Source of the DNA: Bacteroidota bacterium
GTDB taxonomy: Bacteria; Bacteroidota; Bacteroidia; Chitinophagales; BACL12
Direction: 5' to 3'
DNA length: 64,000 nt
Assembly (NCBI GenBank): GCA_029571985.1
Contig: JAKQVC010000110.1
Location: forward strand, 1-64,000
The notes beneath the pieces are model-generated. The model was given only the letters and a program-made list of their open reading frames with translations. It was not told where the DNA came from and did no database searches. Numbering within the stretch: position 1 is the first letter of the stretch; each line of letters begins with the position of its first letter. Both the position numbers and the translations under genes were made by a program. This document shows positions 19,200 through 29,414 of this stretch, piece after piece.

Positions 19200-21410
19200 C
19201 TAATAATTCAGCCTCAACCCAGCGCCCCAACCCATGTCGCTGTCGTAATGGGCGGAGAACGATGTGTTTCGGGACAATGTGTAACTCAACCCACTCATAT
19301 ATTCCAGATCGCTATTCACCATAAGATGCATCCGCAATCGCGGTGTAAGCGGAATATCGTCACGCCTCAACTGTATCCGTACATTGCCATCAGTATACAC
19401 TTCCGCCTGCATCTCCACCAGCATCGGTAGCAAATAAGTAAAACCTGCGCTTAATAATGCACGGTCATTCTTGGTATTGGTCTGACCAAAAAGATTCGTT
19501 TCCTTTTCATCATCACCTGTGTCGCGATAGCGCCAGTCGTAACCCACCAAAGGCATGAACCATTGCATCACACCAAAATATCTTCCGAGGTGCAATTCGG
19601 TTTCATACCCATGATGATCACTGTATCCGAGACGCCATTCGGCACCGAGCGACCAGCGCGTATTTTGTAATGCGAGCATGCCATCATTACCGTTCGTTGC
19701 AAAATCATTGCTGAACATCAGATGCAGGGCGCGGTCGTCGCGATACAGTTTGCGGAGTGCTTTATCCGGATCCGGAATGAGTGGATTTTGCGGTTGATCG
19801 GCGTATGTAAAAACTCTGCCCATGCCGCTCATCATATGATATAGAATATGACAGTGGAAATACCAGTCGCCCTCCACATTGGCGAGGAATTCGATGGTAT
19901 CGGTTTCCATGGGCATGATGTCGAGCACATTTTTTAATGGGGCGTATTCACCCTGACCATTCAGCACCCTGAAATCATGACCGTGTAAATGCATGGGATG
20001 GCGCATCATGGAAGCGTTATAGATGACCATGCGCACGATCTCGCCTTTGTGGATGAGAATTTTATCTTCTTCCGACAACACACGTCCGTCCATGCTCCAC
20101 ACGTAGCGCGACATATTACCCGTGAGTGTAAAACGCAATTCTTTTATCGGTGCATCGGCAGGTAAATTGGTCGGTTCCACTGCACGCAGCATGGCATAAT
20201 TCAAGGTGATGGGCACACCGGATGTCACTGCTGTGTGTCCAATGTGTTCACTGTGGGCGGATGCGGGGCGTTGATAGGTGCCGGGCGACATTTCGGGATA
20301 CATCACGGCATTCATGTCCATTTGCTTCAAACTCATGTGCATGCCCATGTCGTCCATTTCACCATTCATGCGCATCATATCATTCATCATTTGCATGCCG
20401 TCGAAATACGTGAGTGTGGGCCAGCGAAATGCCGGAATGGTGTCGCCGCTGCCCAGATACACAGAAGTGGTGCGCGTGCGGTCCTCCGATTGGATGAGCA
20501 GCTCATAGGTATGTCCATGCGGCACATCCACAACAATATCATACGTTTCAGAAACGGCGATCAGCATACGATCCACCTGTACCGGTTCTACGTCATTGCC
20601 ATCGTTGGCCACCACTTCCAGCGGACCACCGGAATACGAGATCCAAAAATAAGTTGAGGCGCCGCCGTTGGCTATGCGAAAACGTATACGGCCGTGCGCA
20701 TCGGGTATACTTTGTATCTCGCTGCCATTCGTCAACACGCGATCATACGCCACATCACTCACATCCATAGCGGCCATGCGTTTCCATTCGTTCTCCACTT
20801 TTATTCCGAATGCATCCGCGCCGATAGCTTCCGAATAACTCTGCACAGATCCTTTTTTAATAGCGAACCAATCCGTGCCGTTGCGCAACATGTGATGCAC
20901 TTGTTCAGGTCGGATATTCGTCCAATCGCTTATGATCAACGGAACAGTAGGCAGATTATCGATACTGTTTCTTAGGGAAGGATCTGTTGAACGCTTATTA
21001 AAAATGACCATGCCATACATACCGATCTGTTCCTGCAAACCGGAATGGCTGTGATACCAGTGCGTACCGTTCTGGATCACCGGAAAGCGATACACATAAC
21101 GTTCACCGGGAGCAATTGGCATTTGTGTTAGATAGGGCACACCATCTTCGCGGTTCGGGAGAAACACACCATGCCAATGCAGCGATGTACTTTCTTTTAG
21201 ATGATTAAACACCACCACTTCTGCCGTATCCCCTTCAGTAAAGGTGAGTACGGGCATGGGTATCTGCCCATTCACGGCAATGGCGGGGCACTCTTTGCCG
21301 GTGTAATTCACAACCGTATCGCGCACGTGCAATTCATAGCGAACTACTTTTTGCGCTGAAACCAGTGGTGCCATCGACACCCATATGGCGAGCAGGATGA
21401 TGTTCCGCAT
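19200..21410 (-). CDS. Multicopper oxidase fused to an outer-membrane barrel-like C-terminal domain
   Basis: A 736-residue protein with a signal peptide (MRNIILLAIWVSMAPLVSAQ). The oxidase part has all copper-site motifs: HWH (78-80), HSH (120-122), HPMHLHGH, and HCHILYHMM near residues 519-527. A Met-rich stretch (MQMMNDMMRMNGEMDDMGMH) resembles the copper-binding segment of CopA/PcoA oxidases. From about residue 555 the sequence changes to alternating strands (ALHLMFSNDF, WSLGAEWRLGYSDH, ... GAGLRLNY) ending in an aromatic residue, like a CopB/PcoB barrel. It probably oxidises Cu(I) or other metals outside the cytoplasm. The DUF3347 gene lies 15 bases upstream in the same direction. Confidence 0.85.
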   Translation of the reverse strand: MRNIILLAIWVSMAPLVSAQKVVRYELHVRDTVVNYTGKECPAIAVNGQIPMPVLTFTEGDTAEVVVFNHLKESTSLHWHGVFLPNREDGVPYLTQMPIAPGERYVYRFPVIQNGTHWYHSHSGLQEQIGMYGMVIFNKRSTDPSLRNSIDNLPTVPLIISDWTNIRPEQVHHMLRNGTDWFAIKKGSVQSYSEAIGADAFGIKVENEWKRMAAMDVSDVAYDRVLTNGSEIQSIPDAHGRIRFRIANGGASTYFWISYSGGPLEVVANDGNDVEPVQVDRMLIAVSETYDIVVDVPHGHTYELLIQSEDRTRTTSVYLGSGDTIPAFRWPTLTYFDGMQMMNDMMRMNGEMDDMGMHMSLKQMDMNAVMYPEMSPGTYQRPASAHSEHIGHTAVTSGVPITLNYAMLRAVEPTNLPADAPIKELRFTLTGNMSRYVWSMDGRVLSEEDKILIHKGEIVRMVIYNASMMRHPMHLHGHDFRVLNGQGEYAPLKNVLDIMPMETDTIEFLANVEGDWYFHCHILYHMMSGMGRVFTYADQPQNPLIPDPDKALRKLYRDDRALHLMFSNDFATNGNDGMLALQNTRWSLGAEWRLGYSDHHGYETELHLGRYFGVMQWFMPLVGYDWRYRDTGDDEKETNLFGQTNTKNDRALLSAGFTYLLPMLVEMQAEVYTDGNVRIQLRRDDIPLTPRLRMHLMVNSDLEYMSGLSYTLSRNTSFSAHYDSDMGWGAGLRLNY

Positions 21411-21425: not shown

Positions 21426-21896
21426 TTAATCTTTCATTTCTTTCACACTTCCGCAGGTGAGCATGGATGCTCCATAGTACGGATTCTCAATAATTTTTTC
21501 TCTGCTTACCCAGTACGCTTTTCGCATTGGGCAATACTGATAATAGTAAGTGCCACTGAGTGCATCGGATGCTTTTACCAGTTCCCAGATCGCAGGTGAT
21601 ATATTCGCGAATGCCTGGCGCTGCTTTTCAATGTCGCGGGTATCGGCGATGGTATGTGCGCTGCCCATAAGCACTTCGTACTGCTCTGTGCAGATCTTTT
21701 TCTCAGCTTTCGAGAGATCTTCTGTAACATGCAAAGCCGCTTTCAGCAATGCACCGGATCGTTGCGCTGCATCACTATCTCCTGCAATCAACGCATCCTT
21801 TATTGCAAGATAATGATTGATAATACGTTCAGCACCCTGTGCATGCAATTGTGTGGACAGAATTAATAGTAAAGCAATTACAGTTAATTTTTTCAT
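21426..21896 (-). CDS. DUF3347 family secreted protein (metal-associated)
   Basis: A 156-residue protein with a signal peptide MKKLTVIALLLILSTQLHAQ. It carries the DUF3347 signature: HYLAIKDALIAGDSDAAQ near the start and, at the end, YYQYCPMRKAYWVSRE plus NPYYGASMLTCGSVKE. The paired Cys, Met and Tyr residues are suited to binding a soft metal. In Bacteroidota this domain often occurs with CusAB- or CopA-type copper systems, as here, between the multicopper oxidase and the CopZ-like gene. Confidence 0.9.
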   Translation of the reverse strand: MKKLTVIALLLILSTQLHAQGAERIINHYLAIKDALIAGDSDAAQRSGALLKAALHVTEDLSKAEKKICTEQYEVLMGSAHTIADTRDIEKQRQAFANISPAIWELVKASDALSGTYYYQYCPMRKAYWVSREKIIENPYYGASMLTCGSVKEMKD

Positions 21897-21904
21897 GCTC
21901 TTAA

Positions 21905-22150
21905 TTATTTAATTGGTTCGATATTAAATCCTGCTTTTTGCACGGCGGCGATCACTTCTTGTTCGGTGATACCTTCGGAATGAACCGACAGGATCTTGTC
22001 TTTACTCAGCGTGTCCACCTGCCAGTGGCAAATACCATCTGCCTGGTCGAGCACGTTGGTTACACGGGCTACACAGCCGCTGCAATTAATGTTGGTCTTG
22101 AATGTGTATACAGTTGCTTCACTGTGCATTGTCTTTTCCATAATTGTCAT
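21905..22150 (-). CDS. CopZ-like heavy-metal-associated domain protein
   Basis: An 81-residue cytoplasmic protein consisting of one HMA ferredoxin-like domain. The metal site is NCSGCV with C23 and C26, and the usual final GFNIEPI follows. It probably carries Cu(I) to the CopA ATPase encoded upstream. Three closely spaced ATG codons (22150, 22141 and 22129) could each be the start. There are 8 bases between its stop and the start of the DUF3347 gene. Confidence 0.85.
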   Translation of the reverse strand: MTIMEKTMHSEATVYTFKTNINCSGCVARVTNVLDQADGICHWQVDTLSKDKILSVHSEGITEQEVIAAVQKAGFNIEPIK

Positions 22151-22221: not shown

Positions 22222-24663
22222 TTACGGGTGTGAAGCGGTCCATTTCAGGCGTAAACTATTGCTCACCACACTCACACTGCTGAGCGCCATGGCTGCACCA
22301 GCGATCATCGGATTGAGCAGGAAACCGGTAAAGGGATACAACACACCTGCGGCAATTGGTATACCAATGATATTATATATAAATGCCCAGAATAAATTCT
22401 GACGGATCGCGGCCACTGTTTTGCGCGACAGATATATAGCTGCAGGCAATTTCATCAGATCAGAAGTAATCAGCGTGATCCTGGCCACATCAAGTGCAAT
22501 GTCGCTGCCTTTGCCCACGGCAATGCTCACATCAGCCTGTGCCAATGCGGTAGTGTCATTGATGCCATCACCTACCATGGCTACCACTTTGCCCTTTTGT
22601 TGCAATGTGCGGATATAGGCTGCCTTATCCTGCGGCAACATATCGGCTACCACATGCTGTATGCCTGCCTGCTGTGCGATGGCTTGTGCAGAGCGCTGAT
22701 TATCACCGGTGAGCATATAGACAGCGATATGCATATCCTGCAAAGCTGAGATCGCTGCTGCGGATGTAGATTTAATGGTATCGGTCACTGCCACCGCTGC
22801 GCGCGCCACTTTTTCGTCGGCAAACCATACCAGCGTTTTGGCTTGTTCCTGCCATAGGGATGCCTTACTTTGTAATTGTTCAGGAATATCAATATGATTT
22901 TCACGCAGCAAGGCTATATTACCTGCATAAAACCACCTGTTGCCATAGGTGCCTTTCACACCTCGTCCGCTGATATTCTCAAAATCTGCAATGACAACTG
23001 ATGCAGTTCCCTGTAGATGTTCAACAACGGCAGCCGCCAGCGGATGCGCTGATTGTTTTTCCAATGTATAAAAAATCGTTTGCAGGGAGCCATCCGCATT
23101 GAGCCACATGATATCCGTCACACGCGGCCGGCCTTCCGTGATCGTTCCTGTTTTATCGAGCACAATGGTATCGATCTCGCGCGCACGCTCCAAACTTTCG
23201 GCATCTTTAATGAGCATGCCTTGTGCCGCGCCTTTTCCTACACCTACCATAATGGCTGTGGGTGTAGCTAATCCAAGTGCACAAGGACAAGCAATCACCA
23301 ACACGGTTACCAGTGCGAGCAAACCTTGGGTAATACCATTTTCACCGCCAAATAACCACCAGGCTGCTGCTGATAAAATGGCGATGATAATGACGATCGG
23401 CACAAATATTCCTGCGATGCGATCCACCTGTTTTTGCACCGGTGGTTTGCTGCCCTGTGCCTCCTGCACGGTTCGGATAATCTGCGCGAGCATGGTCTCA
23501 CTGCCTGTTTGTGTTACTGAAAATTGAAAACTGCCATTGCCATTGATGGTGCCGGCAAATACTTTTTCTTCAGCGCGTTTATGTAAAGGTACCGGTTCGC
23601 CGGTGAGCATGCTTTCATCCACGTACGACTCCCCTGTTTGCACTATGCCGTCCAGCGGAATTTTATCACCCGGACGAACCAATAAGGTATCACCTTTTTT
23701 CACCTGCTCAATCGGCATTTCTAATACATGTCCGCCTGCATGTACAATATGCACGGTCTTAGATTGCAGTCCAATGAGTTTGCGGATGGCTGATGCTGTA
23801 TTTCCTTTCGCGCGTTCTTCCAGCATTTTTCCCACAAGAATAAATGCAATTACCACAGATGCTGCTTCAAAATAAACGTGTGCGTGCAAACCACGTTCTT
23901 GCCAGAAATTTGGCATCAGCGTATTGAATACACTAAATACATACGATACACCGGTACTCAATGCAACCAATGTATCCATATTCGCGCGGCGATGGCGTGC
24001 CTGTTTCCATGCATGGATGAAAAAATCTTTTCCGAACCACAACAACACCGGCGTACTTAACAGCCACATAATATAATTGGCGTATGGCATATACATAAAG
24101 AACATACCGATTATCACTGTAGGGATGGACAAGGCGACTGCTCCGATTGTGCGTGTGCGAAGTGCGATGTATGATTGATGTTGAAGATCTTCCAGAGTAG
24201 CTTGTGTATCCGCTTCTGTAACCACCAGATCGTAACCGATGGACTGCACGGCTGCGCGCAGCTTTTCGGGATCGGTGATGGTGGGAATATATTCCACCTG
24301 CAGCGTGCCTGCCGCAAAATTCACGGCCGACTGCACCACACCGGGTTGCGCCTGCACCATGGATTCTACGCTGATGGCGCAGGAGGCACAGGTCATCTGT
24401 AATACAGGAATGTTCTTTGTTACTGTGGTAATGTAGTAACCCAGTCCGCGCACTGTATGCACAGCTTTGGGTATTACCTTCATTGCATCATCTGTAATGA
24501 TGAGTGCTCGTCGATTATTCAGTTCCACCTTGAGGCTGGTAATGCCCTGCACCTTGTGCAGACCTTTATCAATGATAAGTGAACAATGTTCACTTTCCAT
24601 GCCTTCGATAGGCAGTATAAAGGGGTTTTCGTTTGCGTTTGCCATAACAGTATCTTTTACCAT
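22222..24663 (-). CDS. copA: Copper-translocating P1B-type ATPase CopA
   Basis: An 813-residue ATPase. The first N-terminal HMA-like domain (about residues 14-80) has GMESEHC in place of the CXXC loop. The second has MTCASCA with C92 and C95. The membrane CPC motif lies in IACPCALGLATPT, the phosphorylation site in DKTGTITEGRP, followed by the HP motif (SAHPLA) and GDGINDTTALAQAD. It exports Cu(I) from the cytoplasm. The ATG at 24645 (MANANENPF) is an alternative start. It is encoded 61 bases downstream of the AraC gene and upstream of the chaperone. Confidence 0.95.
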   Translation of the reverse strand: MVKDTVMANANENPFILPIEGMESEHCSLIIDKGLHKVQGITSLKVELNNRRALIITDDAMKVIPKAVHTVRGLGYYITTVTKNIPVLQMTCASCAISVESMVQAQPGVVQSAVNFAAGTLQVEYIPTITDPEKLRAAVQSIGYDLVVTEADTQATLEDLQHQSYIALRTRTIGAVALSIPTVIIGMFFMYMPYANYIMWLLSTPVLLWFGKDFFIHAWKQARHRRANMDTLVALSTGVSYVFSVFNTLMPNFWQERGLHAHVYFEAASVVIAFILVGKMLEERAKGNTASAIRKLIGLQSKTVHIVHAGGHVLEMPIEQVKKGDTLLVRPGDKIPLDGIVQTGESYVDESMLTGEPVPLHKRAEEKVFAGTINGNGSFQFSVTQTGSETMLAQIIRTVQEAQGSKPPVQKQVDRIAGIFVPIVIIIAILSAAAWWLFGGENGITQGLLALVTVLVIACPCALGLATPTAIMVGVGKGAAQGMLIKDAESLERAREIDTIVLDKTGTITEGRPRVTDIMWLNADGSLQTIFYTLEKQSAHPLAAAVVEHLQGTASVVIADFENISGRGVKGTYGNRWFYAGNIALLRENHIDIPEQLQSKASLWQEQAKTLVWFADEKVARAAVAVTDTIKSTSAAAISALQDMHIAVYMLTGDNQRSAQAIAQQAGIQHVVADMLPQDKAAYIRTLQQKGKVVAMVGDGINDTTALAQADVSIAVGKGSDIALDVARITLITSDLMKLPAAIYLSRKTVAAIRQNLFWAFIYNIIGIPIAAGVLYPFTGFLLNPMIAGAAMALSSVSVVSNSLRLKWTASHP

Positions 24664-24724: not shown

Positions 24725-25264
24725 TTACACCTCGTCGAGCGGTGTACGGCGGGCGCCCTGTAACTGGCGGAACTGGGTTGGTGTCAGGCCGGTCACCTTT
24801 TTGAACTGGCTGCTGAGATACGCCACAGAGGAGTAATTCAAACGAAAAGCGATCTCGCTCAATGATAATTCATCATATACCAATAATTCTTTCACACGTT
24901 CGATCTTTTGCGCGATGAAATATTTTTCGATGGTGGTGCCTTCTGCGGCGGAGAAAAGATTGCTGAGGTAATGATAATCTTGGTGCAACTCGTTGCTCAA
25001 CAATTGCGAGAGGTTAGTTTCGAGTTCGCCATCTTTGGTATGAACCAGATCCACGATAATAGTTTTGATGCGTTCGATGATGCGCGACTTTTTATCGTCG
25101 ATCAGAGCAAAGCCAAAATTGCGGAGGGCAGTGTCGATTCGCACTTTATCCTCGGCAAACAGCTCTCCCTGCAGCTCCACTTCTCCTAACTCAACATGCA
25201 CAGGAGGAAATCCCAGGTGTTCCAACTCGCGGGTAACCACCAGTTTGCAGCGGTTGCATACCAT
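24725..25264 (-). CDS. AraC-type transcriptional regulator with Cys-rich N-terminus
   Basis: A 179-residue protein. The C-terminal domain is an AraC helix-turn-helix pair (YDELSLSEIAFRLNYSSVAYLSSQFKKVTGLTP). The N-terminus MVCNRCKLVV carries CNRC, and a region near 35-80 (RNFGFALIDDKKSRIIERIK) recalls HMA-fused regulators common next to Bacteroidota copper genes. The frame runs upstream in phase: LKLYIRNMVCNRC, with a CTG at 25285 exactly where homologs I remember have ATG. The real start may therefore be that CTG. It is likely the copper-responsive regulator of this island. Confidence 0.85.
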   Translation of the reverse strand: MVCNRCKLVVTRELEHLGFPPVHVELGEVELQGELFAEDKVRIDTALRNFGFALIDDKKSRIIERIKTIIVDLVHTKDGELETNLSQLLSNELHQDYHYLSNLFSAAEGTTIEKYFIAQKIERVKELLVYDELSLSEIAFRLNYSSVAYLSSQFKKVTGLTPTQFRQLQGARRTPLDEV

Positions 25265-25380
25265 ATTGCGGATGTAGAGTTTCAGGTATGGGTTTTTATT
25301 GCATTCTGACCTTAGCTAACAAAACAAAACAAACACAGGTTCCGCACCTCGCTGTTAAAACCAACACATTCTAACCTCCA

Positions 25381-27084
25381 TCACTGCAACACCAGCGGCA
25401 ACATAGCTGTATACTCACCAACAGAAACAGCGATGTAATAAGCGCCAGCCGGTAATTCGGGTAGGCGGATCTGCGTTGCGGTGCTGCCAGTTACTTGAGC
25501 GGTGCTGATCATCTCACCCAGGGTATTATATAAACGCCAGGCGTCCATGGGTACTGTGGAGCTGAGTATGAGTGATGCACCCGAAGCGGCGGGATTCGGA
25601 TAGATCTGACAATTCGCTAATTCGGGATCCACCACAGCATCCTGCGCCACCACCGTAAAGCTGCCCATCATACCATCGTCTTCGTGATGCAGCATGTGAC
25701 AGTGATACATATACGGCACCATATCATCGGCGAAATCTTCGAATGTTTTGATCACCTCGGCAAATTGTCCCGGTGGGATAAATACCACATCCTGAAATGC
25801 TGCATCCACAGCATCCGGAGCCATACCATTGATATTATCAATGAGGAATTGTCCTTCGTGAATATGGAAGGGATGCGATATATGCGTGTTATTCGTGATG
25901 CGCCATTTTTCTATGGTGTTGATAGGCACCACTTCATTGATCACATCCATATTAAAAGAGACACCATTGATCACAAAGGGGCCCATCACCATGTTGTCCA
26001 TACCCATGGTTTCCGGCTCTAATGTAAAATAGCGTGTATTGGTATACGCAGGTATGGTCTTGGGTGCAATAAGCGATGCGGGTATTGCTGTTACCGGTGA
26101 TGCAGTAGGTGCGCCCACTGTAATTTGCAGCAGATCGAAGTCGGCGCCGTTGAGCGGATTGGCATCATAGCCCATAATCGTGCCCATGCCCATACCCGAT
26201 GGATTGGCAGCACCATAAATACCATCGGGAAATTCAGAAGCGAAAGAGCGCATCATCAGCGATTGTCCTTCCATACCACTCAGGTCGATCAGAATTTCAT
26301 AGCGCTCACCGGGAGGTAAAATCAAGCGCGTATGTTCAACCGGTTCGCTCAACAAACCACCATCACCGGCGATCACGTAAAATGGCATATCGTTGGTAAA
26401 TCCGATATAAAAAGTGCGCATACTGGCGCCATTCAATAAACGCAGGCGAATTACCTGAGCAGGCAGTTCGATATAAGGATCAACTGTTGCGTTGACCATT
26501 GGCAGAGTATCCATTTCTGTGGCAATGGCGATTTGGTTGAGCACATCGAAGGCTTTGGTTTGTATTGCCAAAGGAATATCATCAATACCATAGGAGCGTG
26601 GCAAATCCAATAATGTTTCTTCCATATCGCGTACTATAAAAAAACCGGCCAAGCCTCTGGCCACCTGTAGATCGGTTTTACCATCGCCGTGCGGATGATA
26701 CCACAAGGTGGCGGCGTCGTTCATCACTTCCCATGAAGGGCTCCAGGTAGCGCCCTGTTCAATAATTTGATGCGGACCACCATCATCTTCTGCCGATAAA
26801 TGGAATCCATGCCAGTGCATGGTAGTACTATTTCCTGTGCCGGTAAGGTTATTAGTGACGTTCACCGTGATAACATCGCCTTCATTCACCATAAGTGTGG
26901 GGCCGAGAATATCGCCATTGATACCATAGGTGGGTGTGACGATACCCGGGATAAATTCTACCGTGCCATTTTGCACGTTGAGATTAAACTCAGGGCCATA
27001 CAATACTGGCGGAATAAGTAAAGGATTCTGACTAAAAACAAACGCAGCATTTATTAATAAGAGGACAAATAATATTTGTTTCAT
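25381..27084 (-). CDS. T9SS-exported multicopper oxidase (bilirubin-oxidase-like)
   Basis: A 567-residue protein with a signal peptide (MKQILFVLLLINAAFVFSQ). It has three cupredoxin domains with copper motifs MHWHGFHL, WYHPHGDG, HPFHIHEGQF and YHCHMLHHEDDGMMG. The C-terminal 80 residues or so (CQIYPNPAASGASLIL ... AMLPLVLQ) are a T9SS type A sorting domain, so the enzyme is expected outside the outer membrane. It differs from the oxidase at 19200, which has a barrel tail instead. It may oxidise Cu(I), Mn(II) or organic substrates. Confidence 0.92.
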   Translation of the reverse strand: MKQILFVLLLINAAFVFSQNPLLIPPVLYGPEFNLNVQNGTVEFIPGIVTPTYGINGDILGPTLMVNEGDVITVNVTNNLTGTGNSTTMHWHGFHLSAEDDGGPHQIIEQGATWSPSWEVMNDAATLWYHPHGDGKTDLQVARGLAGFFIVRDMEETLLDLPRSYGIDDIPLAIQTKAFDVLNQIAIATEMDTLPMVNATVDPYIELPAQVIRLRLLNGASMRTFYIGFTNDMPFYVIAGDGGLLSEPVEHTRLILPPGERYEILIDLSGMEGQSLMMRSFASEFPDGIYGAANPSGMGMGTIMGYDANPLNGADFDLLQITVGAPTASPVTAIPASLIAPKTIPAYTNTRYFTLEPETMGMDNMVMGPFVINGVSFNMDVINEVVPINTIEKWRITNNTHISHPFHIHEGQFLIDNINGMAPDAVDAAFQDVVFIPPGQFAEVIKTFEDFADDMVPYMYHCHMLHHEDDGMMGSFTVVAQDAVVDPELANCQIYPNPAASGASLILSSTVPMDAWRLYNTLGEMISTAQVTGSTATQIRLPELPAGAYYIAVSVGEYTAMLPLVLQ

Positions 27085-27090
27085 AATTAT

Positions 27091-27873
27091 TTACTTTAGA
27101 ATTACCAGTTGCTTAGTTACGGAAAAATCCTGATTGGTCACCTTCAAAAAATACGTTCCTTGGGTCAACAAATTAACATCTAAATCAATTGACTGTGCGC
27201 CAACCGTTGTATATTTTTGCAACTTGGGTGAAGCCGACTTTCCAGTTAAATCAAACAATTCAAATGAAATTTCACCAGGTTGCATAACATCAAATTGCAA
27301 TGTTGCAACCATGCTTGCCGGGTTTGGAGTTATGATCAAACTTTGAATCGATTCAAATACTACATCAATATTAGTTTCAACACCAAATAAACGATAAATT
27401 GAATCTCGAATGATTGTTGTATCACTGGTTAAATAGCTAAGTGTAGAATAAATCACCCTATGGTCTTCCCCTCCCACCAAAACAACAGTAGGCATGCCAA
27501 ATCCACCATAATAGGCCACCTGAAATTCACCACTATCCATTGGTGTGAAAAAAGGTACATGACTAGCATCTACCCAATCTGTTACAGTGCTGCAATCATA
27601 AGTGTCGAGGAATGGAAATGTATAACCAACAACCATTTCAGGAAAATCATTAAGAATTCCATTGGCCATTTCTTGCAATTGCTGCGCCGGAGGAGGACAA
27701 GCGCCACAATCAGGCATATAATATAATAATATTGCCGCCTTGCCCGCATCTAGGTCTGCATATAAATCAACTGCATTCCCATTGCAATCTTCTCCAGTAA
27801 ATTGATAAGCTGATTGCGCATGTGCGGAAAGCACAAAACCCACAAGTACCGTTAGCAAAAAAAACTTTTTCAT
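27091..27873 (-). CDS. T9SS-exported thioredoxin-fold protein
   Basis: A 260-residue protein with signal peptide MKKFFLLTVLVGFVLSAHAQ. A thioredoxin-like domain follows with a CGAC active site (C56, C59; YYMPDCGACPPPAQQ) and a cis-proline loop GMPTVVLVGG. The last 80 residues (LIITPNPASMVATLQF ... KQLVILK) are a T9SS sorting domain. It starts 6 bases before the multicopper oxidase gene, so the two are probably co-transcribed and co-exported. A redox or metal-transfer role for the CXXC pair is inference. Confidence 0.85.
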   Translation of the reverse strand: MKKFFLLTVLVGFVLSAHAQSAYQFTGEDCNGNAVDLYADLDAGKAAILLYYMPDCGACPPPAQQLQEMANGILNDFPEMVVGYTFPFLDTYDCSTVTDWVDASHVPFFTPMDSGEFQVAYYGGFGMPTVVLVGGEDHRVIYSTLSYLTSDTTIIRDSIYRLFGVETNIDVVFESIQSLIITPNPASMVATLQFDVMQPGEISFELFDLTGKSASPKLQKYTTVGAQSIDLDVNLLTQGTYFLKVTNQDFSVTKQLVILK

Positions 27874-27896
27874 GATTTAAATATTTTTAAATAAAT

Positions 27897-28784
27897 TTAT
27901 ATTAATACAATTTTTTTTGTAAGCAAGGTATTATTCAAAATAACTTCTACAAAATAGATACCTTTAGGTAACCCTTCAAAATTAATTGAGAGCGAACCGT
28001 CTTCTAATTCTTCAATAATTGTTGGCGTTGTCTTTTGCCCATTAGAATTAATTATTTGCAAAGATTGCCGACTTAATGCTTTTTCTGATTTTATGATAAA
28101 TAAACCGGATGTAGGATTTGGAAAAATTGAAACCTCCTGATTGGATGAATAATTAAATAGGTAGGAAGGAACATCTTCACCTTCAAATTGTAAATCGTCA
28201 ACATATAAGAAGTCGTTTTGCGCAGGCGTATCGCCGCTAGCTGAAAATGTTATTATACATGTATCGGGATTGAAATCCAAAAAATAAGAAATATTTACTG
28301 TGAACGCAGCCCAACTCATAGCCATACCAGTCAGAGGTTTATGACCGTTGCCAACTACTATACGTTCGTTATTGATTGCATCCCACTTTGTTAACTGGAC
28401 ATCAATATAACCCTGACTACTACCAAAAATCATATGTTGCCACATGCCGGTTAACTTTTCAGGCCTGCTGGAGAATGGAAAACCAGTTAGAGCTGTGAAA
28501 TCTGATGGATCTAAAAGACCACTAACGGCTAACCCGGGCATCACACCCATACCTGTGATGTTTTGACTCGTTAATTTCAAGTACGAAGAGCCAGGGTTCC
28601 CGGGTGTTCCAACTTCACATGTGTAAATACCCGAAGCATCAGTCATTGCATTTAGTGTTGACCACGATTCAGGGACTTCATATGAACCCATATCAGTCCA
28701 AATTTCAAAAGAAGAATTAGGTATTTGCGCTATGGCACAACCCGTATAGATAATACCGGCAATAAAACTTAAAAATTTCAACAT
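27897..28784 (-). CDS. T9SS-exported protein with PCMD-like carbohydrate-metabolism-type domain
   Basis: A 295-residue protein with signal peptide MLKFLSFIAGIIYTGCAIAQ. The mature part begins IPNSSFEIW and contains PESWSTLNAMTD, GYIDVQLTKWD, FSASGDTPAQNDFLYVDDLQF, resembling putative carbohydrate-metabolism (PCMD) beta-sandwich domains. The T9SS sorting domain follows (VSIFPNPTSGLFIIK ... TKKIVLI). It is 23 bases upstream of the thioredoxin-fold gene. AT-richer than the copper genes to its left. Function unknown. Confidence 0.75.
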   Translation of the reverse strand: MLKFLSFIAGIIYTGCAIAQIPNSSFEIWTDMGSYEVPESWSTLNAMTDASGIYTCEVGTPGNPGSSYLKLTSQNITGMGVMPGLAVSGLLDPSDFTALTGFPFSSRPEKLTGMWQHMIFGSSQGYIDVQLTKWDAINNERIVVGNGHKPLTGMAMSWAAFTVNISYFLDFNPDTCIITFSASGDTPAQNDFLYVDDLQFEGEDVPSYLFNYSSNQEVSIFPNPTSGLFIIKSEKALSRQSLQIINSNGQKTTPTIIEELEDGSLSINFEGLPKGIYFVEVILNNTLLTKKIVLI

Positions 28785-28843
28785 TGCGTTAGATTTAATG
28801 ATTAATTACTATTTAGAGGGGATATTCCTTAAACAGCAAATCA

Positions 28844-29254
28844 TCAAATCTGGAAACTACTTTTGTAAATACATAAATCAACTCCACCTAACGGCGGTCC
28901 GCTATCAAAAGCATTATGAAGAATGGATTCATGCTTAATATTGGGATAGAAAAATTGATAGCTGTCAATAGACTCTAATAGAGTAATAGAACTTAAATGA
29001 GACTCAATAGAATACGATGAGTAAAATTGACCGCATAACCCCGAAATAGTCAAATGTGATTGTTGACAGTTTGAACTTCCTTTTTCATTTGGCACGTTTT
29101 TTTCGCAACATGAATGAGTCGAAATAGTTTTACTGCTTATTAACTCATCGTTTACAAGGCAATAAACAGAACATGTAAGTGATGCAAAATACATTAACAC
29201 CATTGCTGGGCCAATTATTTTAATACCATTACTGACACGTCCTATGAAAAACAT
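28844..29254 (-). CDS. Small Cys-rich membrane protein, possibly HYC_CC_PP-like
   Basis: A 136-residue protein when started at the ATG at 29254 (MFFIGRVSNGIKIIGPAMVLMYFASL), with a hydrophobic N-terminal segment followed by a Cys-rich part (STHSCCEKN, SNCQQSHL) and a late GPPLGGVDLCIYKS. The order His-Cys-Cys ... Cys ... Pro-Pro recalls the small HYC_CC_PP proteins seen near Bacteroidota copper genes. The open frame extends 11 codons upstream, but a complete -33/-7 promoter ends just 3 bases before 29254, which decides the start. Confidence 0.55.
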   Translation of the reverse strand: MFFIGRVSNGIKIIGPAMVLMYFASLTCSVYCLVNDELISSKTISTHSCCEKNVPNEKGSSNCQQSHLTISGLCGQFYSSYSIESHLSSITLLESIDSYQFFYPNIKHESILHNAFDSGPPLGGVDLCIYKSSFQI

Positions 29255-29257
29255 ATA

Positions 29258-29287
29258 CAAAAGTAATAAAAAAGTACTTTTTAGCAA
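29258..29287 (-). promoter_or_regulatory. Complete -33/-7 promoter for the Cys-rich membrane protein gene
   Basis: On the minus strand: TTG at 29287-29285, a 19-base spacer, then TACTTTTG at 29265-29258. This is the expected Bacteroidota spacing. The -7 element ends 3 bases before the ATG at 29254, implying a leaderless transcript. Confidence 0.65.
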
Positions 29288-29414
29288 AAAAAACAGAATT
29301 TCTTACCATTTTCAGATAAATAGTTGACAATCAATTGATTACTTAGTACTTTTTCTAACAAAAATGTGCAACTGGACATTCAAAAAGCATTAATGTCACT
29401 TTAAATAAATTTTC

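Follow-up and report, generated by a model that had tools for sequence, protein, structure and literature searches.

The window analyzed here comprises 64,000 nucleotides (positions 1 to 64,000) of contig JAKQVC010000110.1 from a Bacteroidota bacterium, and it carries a compact module of four genes that encode a small Cys-rich leader, a PCMD-like protein, a thioredoxin-fold protein, and a multicopper oxidase (MCO) resembling CueO (Table 1). The three larger proteins each ended in a sorting tail of the type IX secretion system (T9SS), as PF18962 was matched at 3e-12, 8.5e-10, and 2.4e-6 and TIGR04183 scored above its cut-off on all three. The T9SS machinery was searched via the PorU sortase, which the genome encodes (1309.6 bits against a cut-off of 420), and T9SS was therefore taken as present. 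Judging by these tails, the MCO and the thioredoxin-fold protein would be located at the cell surface. An earlier sequence-only reading of this DNA had proposed a T9SS-exported MCO, thioredoxin-fold protein, and third protein, and a sorting tail above the curated cut-off on each is consistent with such export; coordinates and motif likewise agreed with its placement of the thioredoxin-fold protein with a CGAC site directly upstream of the MCO, the gap from thioredoxin stop to MCO start being 6 bp.

The arrangement of thioredoxin and MCO was conserved far beyond chance. Two genome collections were used, one of them consisting of 247 genomes of the class; the collections partly hold the same genomes and so are not fully independent. 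Among the 247 genomes, thioredoxin homologues above ca. 34% identity adjoined an MCO of this type at nearly every locus, while weak homologues (25-33% identity) were not adjacent to an MCO and were left out as members of the system. In the second collection, this MCO followed the thioredoxin gene on the same strand, no more than three genes downstream, at 68 of 79 thioredoxin loci, and some of the 11 exceptions sat at contig ends. The pairing spanned about 11 families, often with gaps of <10 bp. A tree of 56 MCO rows placed every thioredoxin-linked MCO (20 of 20) in one clade (support 100/99), and six PCMD-linked MCOs formed a sister clade (100/99) in which the PCMD gene was upstream of the MCO in every case (6/6). 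The window MCO fell in the thioredoxin-linked clade yet has both partners. The sequence-only reading had made its proposal depend in part on co-occurrence of these genes in other genomes, and co-occurrence was what the 79 loci and the tree revealed. The complete gene order recurred in G003, a sister genome from within the genus, and two cultured organisms also keep the module: the isolate Flavipsychrobacter stenotrophus has leader, PCMD, thioredoxin, MCO, AraC, and CopA genes in that order, and Taibaiella chishuiensis has the same order with AraC and CopA but without PCMD.

Other proteins were also found beside these loci, given here as locus and coordinates. The MCO was the second gene downstream of the thioredoxin in 28 of the 68 loci, and an extra protein of ~230 aa, mostly T9SS-tailed and with two Cys (CDNxxCY-like), often lay between the two, as at L039:10017-10721, L040:8016-8711, L044:10639-11325, and L048:2194-2886. 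A T9SS protein of ~485 aa with a conserved CDCCPGA motif adjoined the module in three genomes (L040:4836-6296, L044:13894-15351, and L047:8121-9596). Distant thioredoxin homologues adjoined a protein with GCCSGGSGSP or CCAGG at its mature N-terminus (L065:8106-9206, L066:7576-8592, L068:10486-11592, and L072:7791-8915).

The window MCO matched MCO domains at 1e-29 and 1e-19, and its closest NCBIfam model was CueO, at 341 bits against an equivalog cut-off of 525, which makes it a homologue and not an equivalog. The ligand motifs HWHG, WYHPH, HPFHIH, and HCHxxxHxxxxM, covering all T1/T2/T3 sites, were kept across homologues, the thioredoxin-linked MCOs had HCHxLHHED[DE]GMM in common, and Met-rich loops were present in the window MCO. 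The thioredoxin domain was modeled by AlphaFold with a pLDDT of 92, and its best PDB matches were ResA and TlpA/DsbE-like proteins. It has a CGAC site and the cis-Pro motif GMPT; across 19 homologues, C11, C37, C40, C75, and M108-P109-T110 were invariant, covering the CxxC cysteines, another Cys pair, and the loop with the cis-Pro. The PCMD-like protein matched PF13201 (PCMD) at 0.0026, under the cut-off, and its predicted fold, of moderate confidence (pLDDT 69), was closest to the putative glycoside hydrolases 3hbz/3s30 and to carbohydrate-binding modules (CBMs).

The window leader combines a hydrophobic, signal-like N-terminus (assessed by eye) with CSVYC (CxxxC), CC, and a PP followed by 15 residues, its C-terminal end being GPPLGGVDLCIYKSSFQI. 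The sequence-only reading had called it a small Cys-rich membrane protein; small and Cys-rich it is, but the hydrophobic stretch is confined to the N-terminus, and the protein looks like a secreted leader. It had no Pfam or NCBIfam match, including to the HYC_CC_PP model NF047658. A hidden Markov model (HMM) built only from the leaders of other loci ranked it best of 233 open reading frames (ORFs) from the window and L038 (E 4e-5), with the leader copy of the sister genome second (E 0.0016). Across 33 aligned leaders, of which 27 matched HYC_CC_PP, the residues C, C, C, P, and P were invariant; the window subtype, like CutF, has CxxxC in place of HYCGG. In 41 of 53 leaders, 15-17 residues separated the PP from the C-terminus, and in 49 of 53 the last residue was Ile. 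A leader was found upstream at 47 of the 79 thioredoxin loci. The window leader is a divergent HYC_CC_PP relative that resembles the nascent copper sensors CutF (Rhodobacter capsulatus) and CruR (Bordetella pertussis), and it has the features of CutF-like proteins: a length of <150 aa, a signal-like segment at the N-terminus, a Cys motif, and PP toward the C-terminus.

A predicted RNA helix joins the leader stop to the region of the PCMD start. Its 5' arm (28839-28851) covers the last codon and stop of the leader, its 3' arm (28791-28803) ends 6 bases short of the PCMD start codon, and its minimum free energy (MFE) of -23.1 (z -5.0) was equaled in 0 of 200 shuffles. The sister genome had a helix of the same geometry but different sequence (z -4.2), and no structure was found in the gaps from PCMD to thioredoxin and from thioredoxin to MCO (z +1.1 and +0.7). 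Structure was stronger in the gaps after 59 leaders than in 250 control gaps (p 7e-5), and terminator-like gaps were found after 19 of the 59 leaders, compared with 30 of 250 controls (p 3e-4). A start-covering helix as the rule for all leaders was rejected; it applied to a subset, and many loci had terminator-like hairpins instead. At L175, L182, and L172, as after many leaders, the gap has a hairpin a short way past the leader and then TTTTTGTGC or another T-rich stretch of this kind, which may be an attenuator.

Downstream of the module, on the same strand, follow an AraC-family regulator, CopA, a CopZ-like chaperone, a DUF3347 protein, and a second MCO; the sequence-only reading had likewise placed the module next to intracellular copper genes. 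The N-terminal part of AraC, KLYIRNMVCNRCK, is HMA-like (NMVCxRCK). Its orthologues begin MKxYIxNMVCxRCK and use ATG, and in the window the likely start, judged by upstream in-frame codons, is CTG at 25285. The second MCO scored 349 bits with TIGR01480, under that model's cut-off of 479, and its C-terminus has ~170 additional aa that by eye resemble part of an outer-membrane barrel. The putative promoter ahead of the leader matches the Bacteroidota consensus, a pattern with 3 exact matches in the 64 kb on both strands; in the sister genome TAnnTTTG lies 9 bases before the leader. Two copies of AAAAAGTACT lie on the minus strand at 29269-29354, one of them within the promoter spacer, and could represent an operator.

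Table 1. Features of the module and of its neighborhood in the window.
Feature	Position	Strand	Evidence or remark
Four-gene module: leader, PCMD-like, thioredoxin-fold, MCO, in read order	25381-29254	minus	
Small Cys-rich leader, 136 aa	28844..29254	minus	ATG at 29254; TTG at 29287 possible
T9SS-tailed PCMD-like beta-sandwich protein	27897..28784	minus	PF18962 3e-12
T9SS-tailed thioredoxin-fold protein, CGAC	27091..27873	minus	AlphaFold; ResA/TlpA-like
T9SS-tailed CueO-like MCO	25381..27084	minus	MCO domains, ligand motifs
Putative promoter, Bacteroidota type, TTG-N19-TAnnTTTG	29258..29287	minus	consensus match only; ends 3 bases before leader ATG
Predicted RNA helix, 13-bp	28791..28851	minus	joins leader stop to PCMD start region
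AraC-family regulator	24725..25285	minus	PF12833 1.2e-16
CopA copper-exporting P-type ATPase	22222..24663	minus	TIGR01511 above cut-off
CopZ-like HMA copper chaperone	21905..22150	minus	PF00403 1e-5
DUF3347 protein	21426..21896	minus	PF11827 1.4e-16
Second MCO, PcoA/CopA-like, without T9SS tail	19200..21410	minus	nearest model TIGR01480

On balance, the locus is probably a Bacteroidota copper-defence operon whose oxidase is exported to the surface and which is headed by a CutF/CruR-like nascent copper sensor. Gene conservation, sorting signals, folds, copper ligands, the leader family, and the predicted RNA helix were the observations on which this reading was built, and from them a copper response, a surface location, a role for the thioredoxin, and a leader mechanism can be proposed. 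The MCO, its thioredoxin partner, and the PCMD protein would pass Sec and then T9SS, and, once outside the outer membrane, the MCO would oxidize Cu(I) to Cu(II), while the thioredoxin would most likely keep the T1 cysteine or copper reduced during copper loading, or hand copper on. As the leader is exported, its CxxxC/CC motifs could meet copper outside the cytoplasm, upon which its PP-containing C-terminus would slow the ribosome in the last steps of translation. The slowed ribosome would sit on the 5' arm of the helix and free the next start region; at other loci, it may avert termination instead. By this route, the surface enzymes would be made only with extracytoplasmic copper present, and AraC, with its HMA-like N-terminus, probably adds transcriptional control. 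That a nascent exported protein serves as the copper gauge, sensing in or near the periplasm and switching on a T9SS-exported surface oxidase together with its own redox partner, is a more tentative proposal, which we hold to be somewhat short of probable.

Several results weigh against a leader-controlled copper-defence operon. The substrate-copper ligands of CueO, which we take to be D439 and M441, were not conserved in the window MCO or its relatives; before HPFHIH, the window has THIS and the relatives T-GIA or similar, in place of the DMML of CueO-like structures. With those ligands lost, the substrate could differ from Cu(I), and a cuprous oxidase activity is therefore suggested by context. 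Another copper gene was found within ~5 kb at only 17 of the 79 loci, and the loci are kin, so that p-values are optimistic. As a class, the start-covering helix was not above control gene pairs (9/54 compared with 19/200, p 0.11). The PP of the leaders, at 15-17 residues, is farther from the C-terminus than that of CutF, which leaves the window leader just outside the published CutF filter, where PP is needed within the last 15 residues (PMC9973294). None of the leaders matched DUF2946 (PF11162); the window leader matched no other Pfam family either, and an identity of that kind was rejected.

The likeliest alternative is that AraC alone gives copper control and that the leader persists as a small protein that binds copper, either chaperone or scavenger, beside which the helix is incidental. 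The HMA-like N-terminus of AraC, the direct repeats upstream, and the class-wide helix result all fit this account, which we nevertheless regard as rather unlikely, given that the leader is conserved to its final residue with fixed PP spacing, that hairpins are commoner after leaders than after other genes, and that the window and sister helices have geometry in common and not sequence. A little less likely again, the thioredoxin could serve other surface cargo, as a disulfide isomerase or a copper reductase, with its MCO pairing reflecting shared regulation. In 47 of 71 paired MCOs, the catalytic part had a single Cys, leaving no disulfide to make; this favors another cargo and makes the thioredoxin an unlikely disulfide-maker for the MCO, but the clade-exclusive pairing and the short gaps suggested a specific partner. 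We consider it unlikely, more so than either of these, that the module works at the surface as a laccase-type system in which the MCO oxidizes phenols, Mn, or Fe, the thioredoxin has a general part in surface thiol chemistry, and the copper genes adjoin only because the MCO requires copper. The altered substrate site, the majority of loci having no other copper genes nearby, and the CBM-like PCMD partner, which hints at polymer binding, would suit such a system, but AraC and CopA directly follow in the window, the sister genome, and both isolates, the operon is headed by a copper-sensor-type leader, and the window MCO has Met-rich loops. A chance neighborhood was ruled out by the co-occurrence and the MCO tree.

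Accounts of Gram-negative copper defence deal mainly with the cytoplasm and the periplasm. If its oxidase does leave by T9SS together with a thioredoxin of its own, a major phylum would carry that defence on to the outer surface. Should the leader also act as the copper gauge, this would be a leader-peptide-controlled T9SS cargo operon, and both the HYC_CC_PP proteins and this family of thioredoxins would gain their first function. For HYC_CC_PP proteins, the role offered here is testable. In the open-access literature, no paper was found on an MCO that is exported by T9SS and paired with a thioredoxin (T9SS and MCO together led only to an unrelated fish-pathogen genomics paper), on the named family HYC_CC_PP, or on an operon that joins a CutF-like leader and a dedicated TlpA-like partner to export by T9SS; the supplement of PMC9973294 may list some such loci. 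The suggestion of the sequence-only reading that this was an undescribed system held in part: no paper describing the conserved T9SS-tailed module was found, but its parts are of known kinds (CueO-like MCO, TlpA/ResA-like thioredoxin, CutF-like leader) and resemble cutFOG, so it represents a variant in location and partner and is not categorically undescribed.

Among known systems, TlpA/ResA-type thiol-disulfide oxidoreductases share their fold, CxxC, and cis-Pro with the thioredoxin-fold protein, which differs by its T9SS tail, second invariant Cys pair, and fixed MCO partnership. Escherichia coli CueO has the same MCO fold and T1/T2/T3 ligands and provided the closest NCBIfam model, but it is exported by Tat, whereas the window MCO has a T9SS tail and lacks the substrate-copper ligands. 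The CruR/DUF2946 upstream regulator of B. pertussis (PMC9426467) likewise heads a copper operon as a short first ORF, with a Cys motif and with PP toward the C-terminus; unlike it, the window leader had no DUF2946 match, the operon content differs, and hairpins occur here in contrast to a known Rho-dependent site. In R. capsulatus, the switching on of the MCO CutO by CutF depends on CxxxC, on the prolines at the C-terminus of CutF, and on a stem-loop in the RNA (PMC8456105, PMC9973294). Many CutF-like proteins are reported from Bacteroidota, none experimentally tested there according to the available text of PMC9973294, in which a thioredoxin is not mentioned. Like cutFOG (PMC8456105, PMC9973294), the module places a small Cys/Pro leader first and then a CueO/CutO-like MCO, includes an accessory redox protein, has a stem-loop between leader and next gene, and is linked to CopZ-CopA. 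Unlike cutFOG, its MCO and partner are T9SS-tailed, the partner is TlpA/ResA-like and not CopG-like as is CutG (no CopG-like CutG was found among the operon's genes by Pfam/NCBIfam domain matches), an AraC regulator follows, and a PCMD protein may intervene. By analogy, the module would best be read as the Bacteroidota, surface-exported counterpart of Rhodobacter cutFOG.

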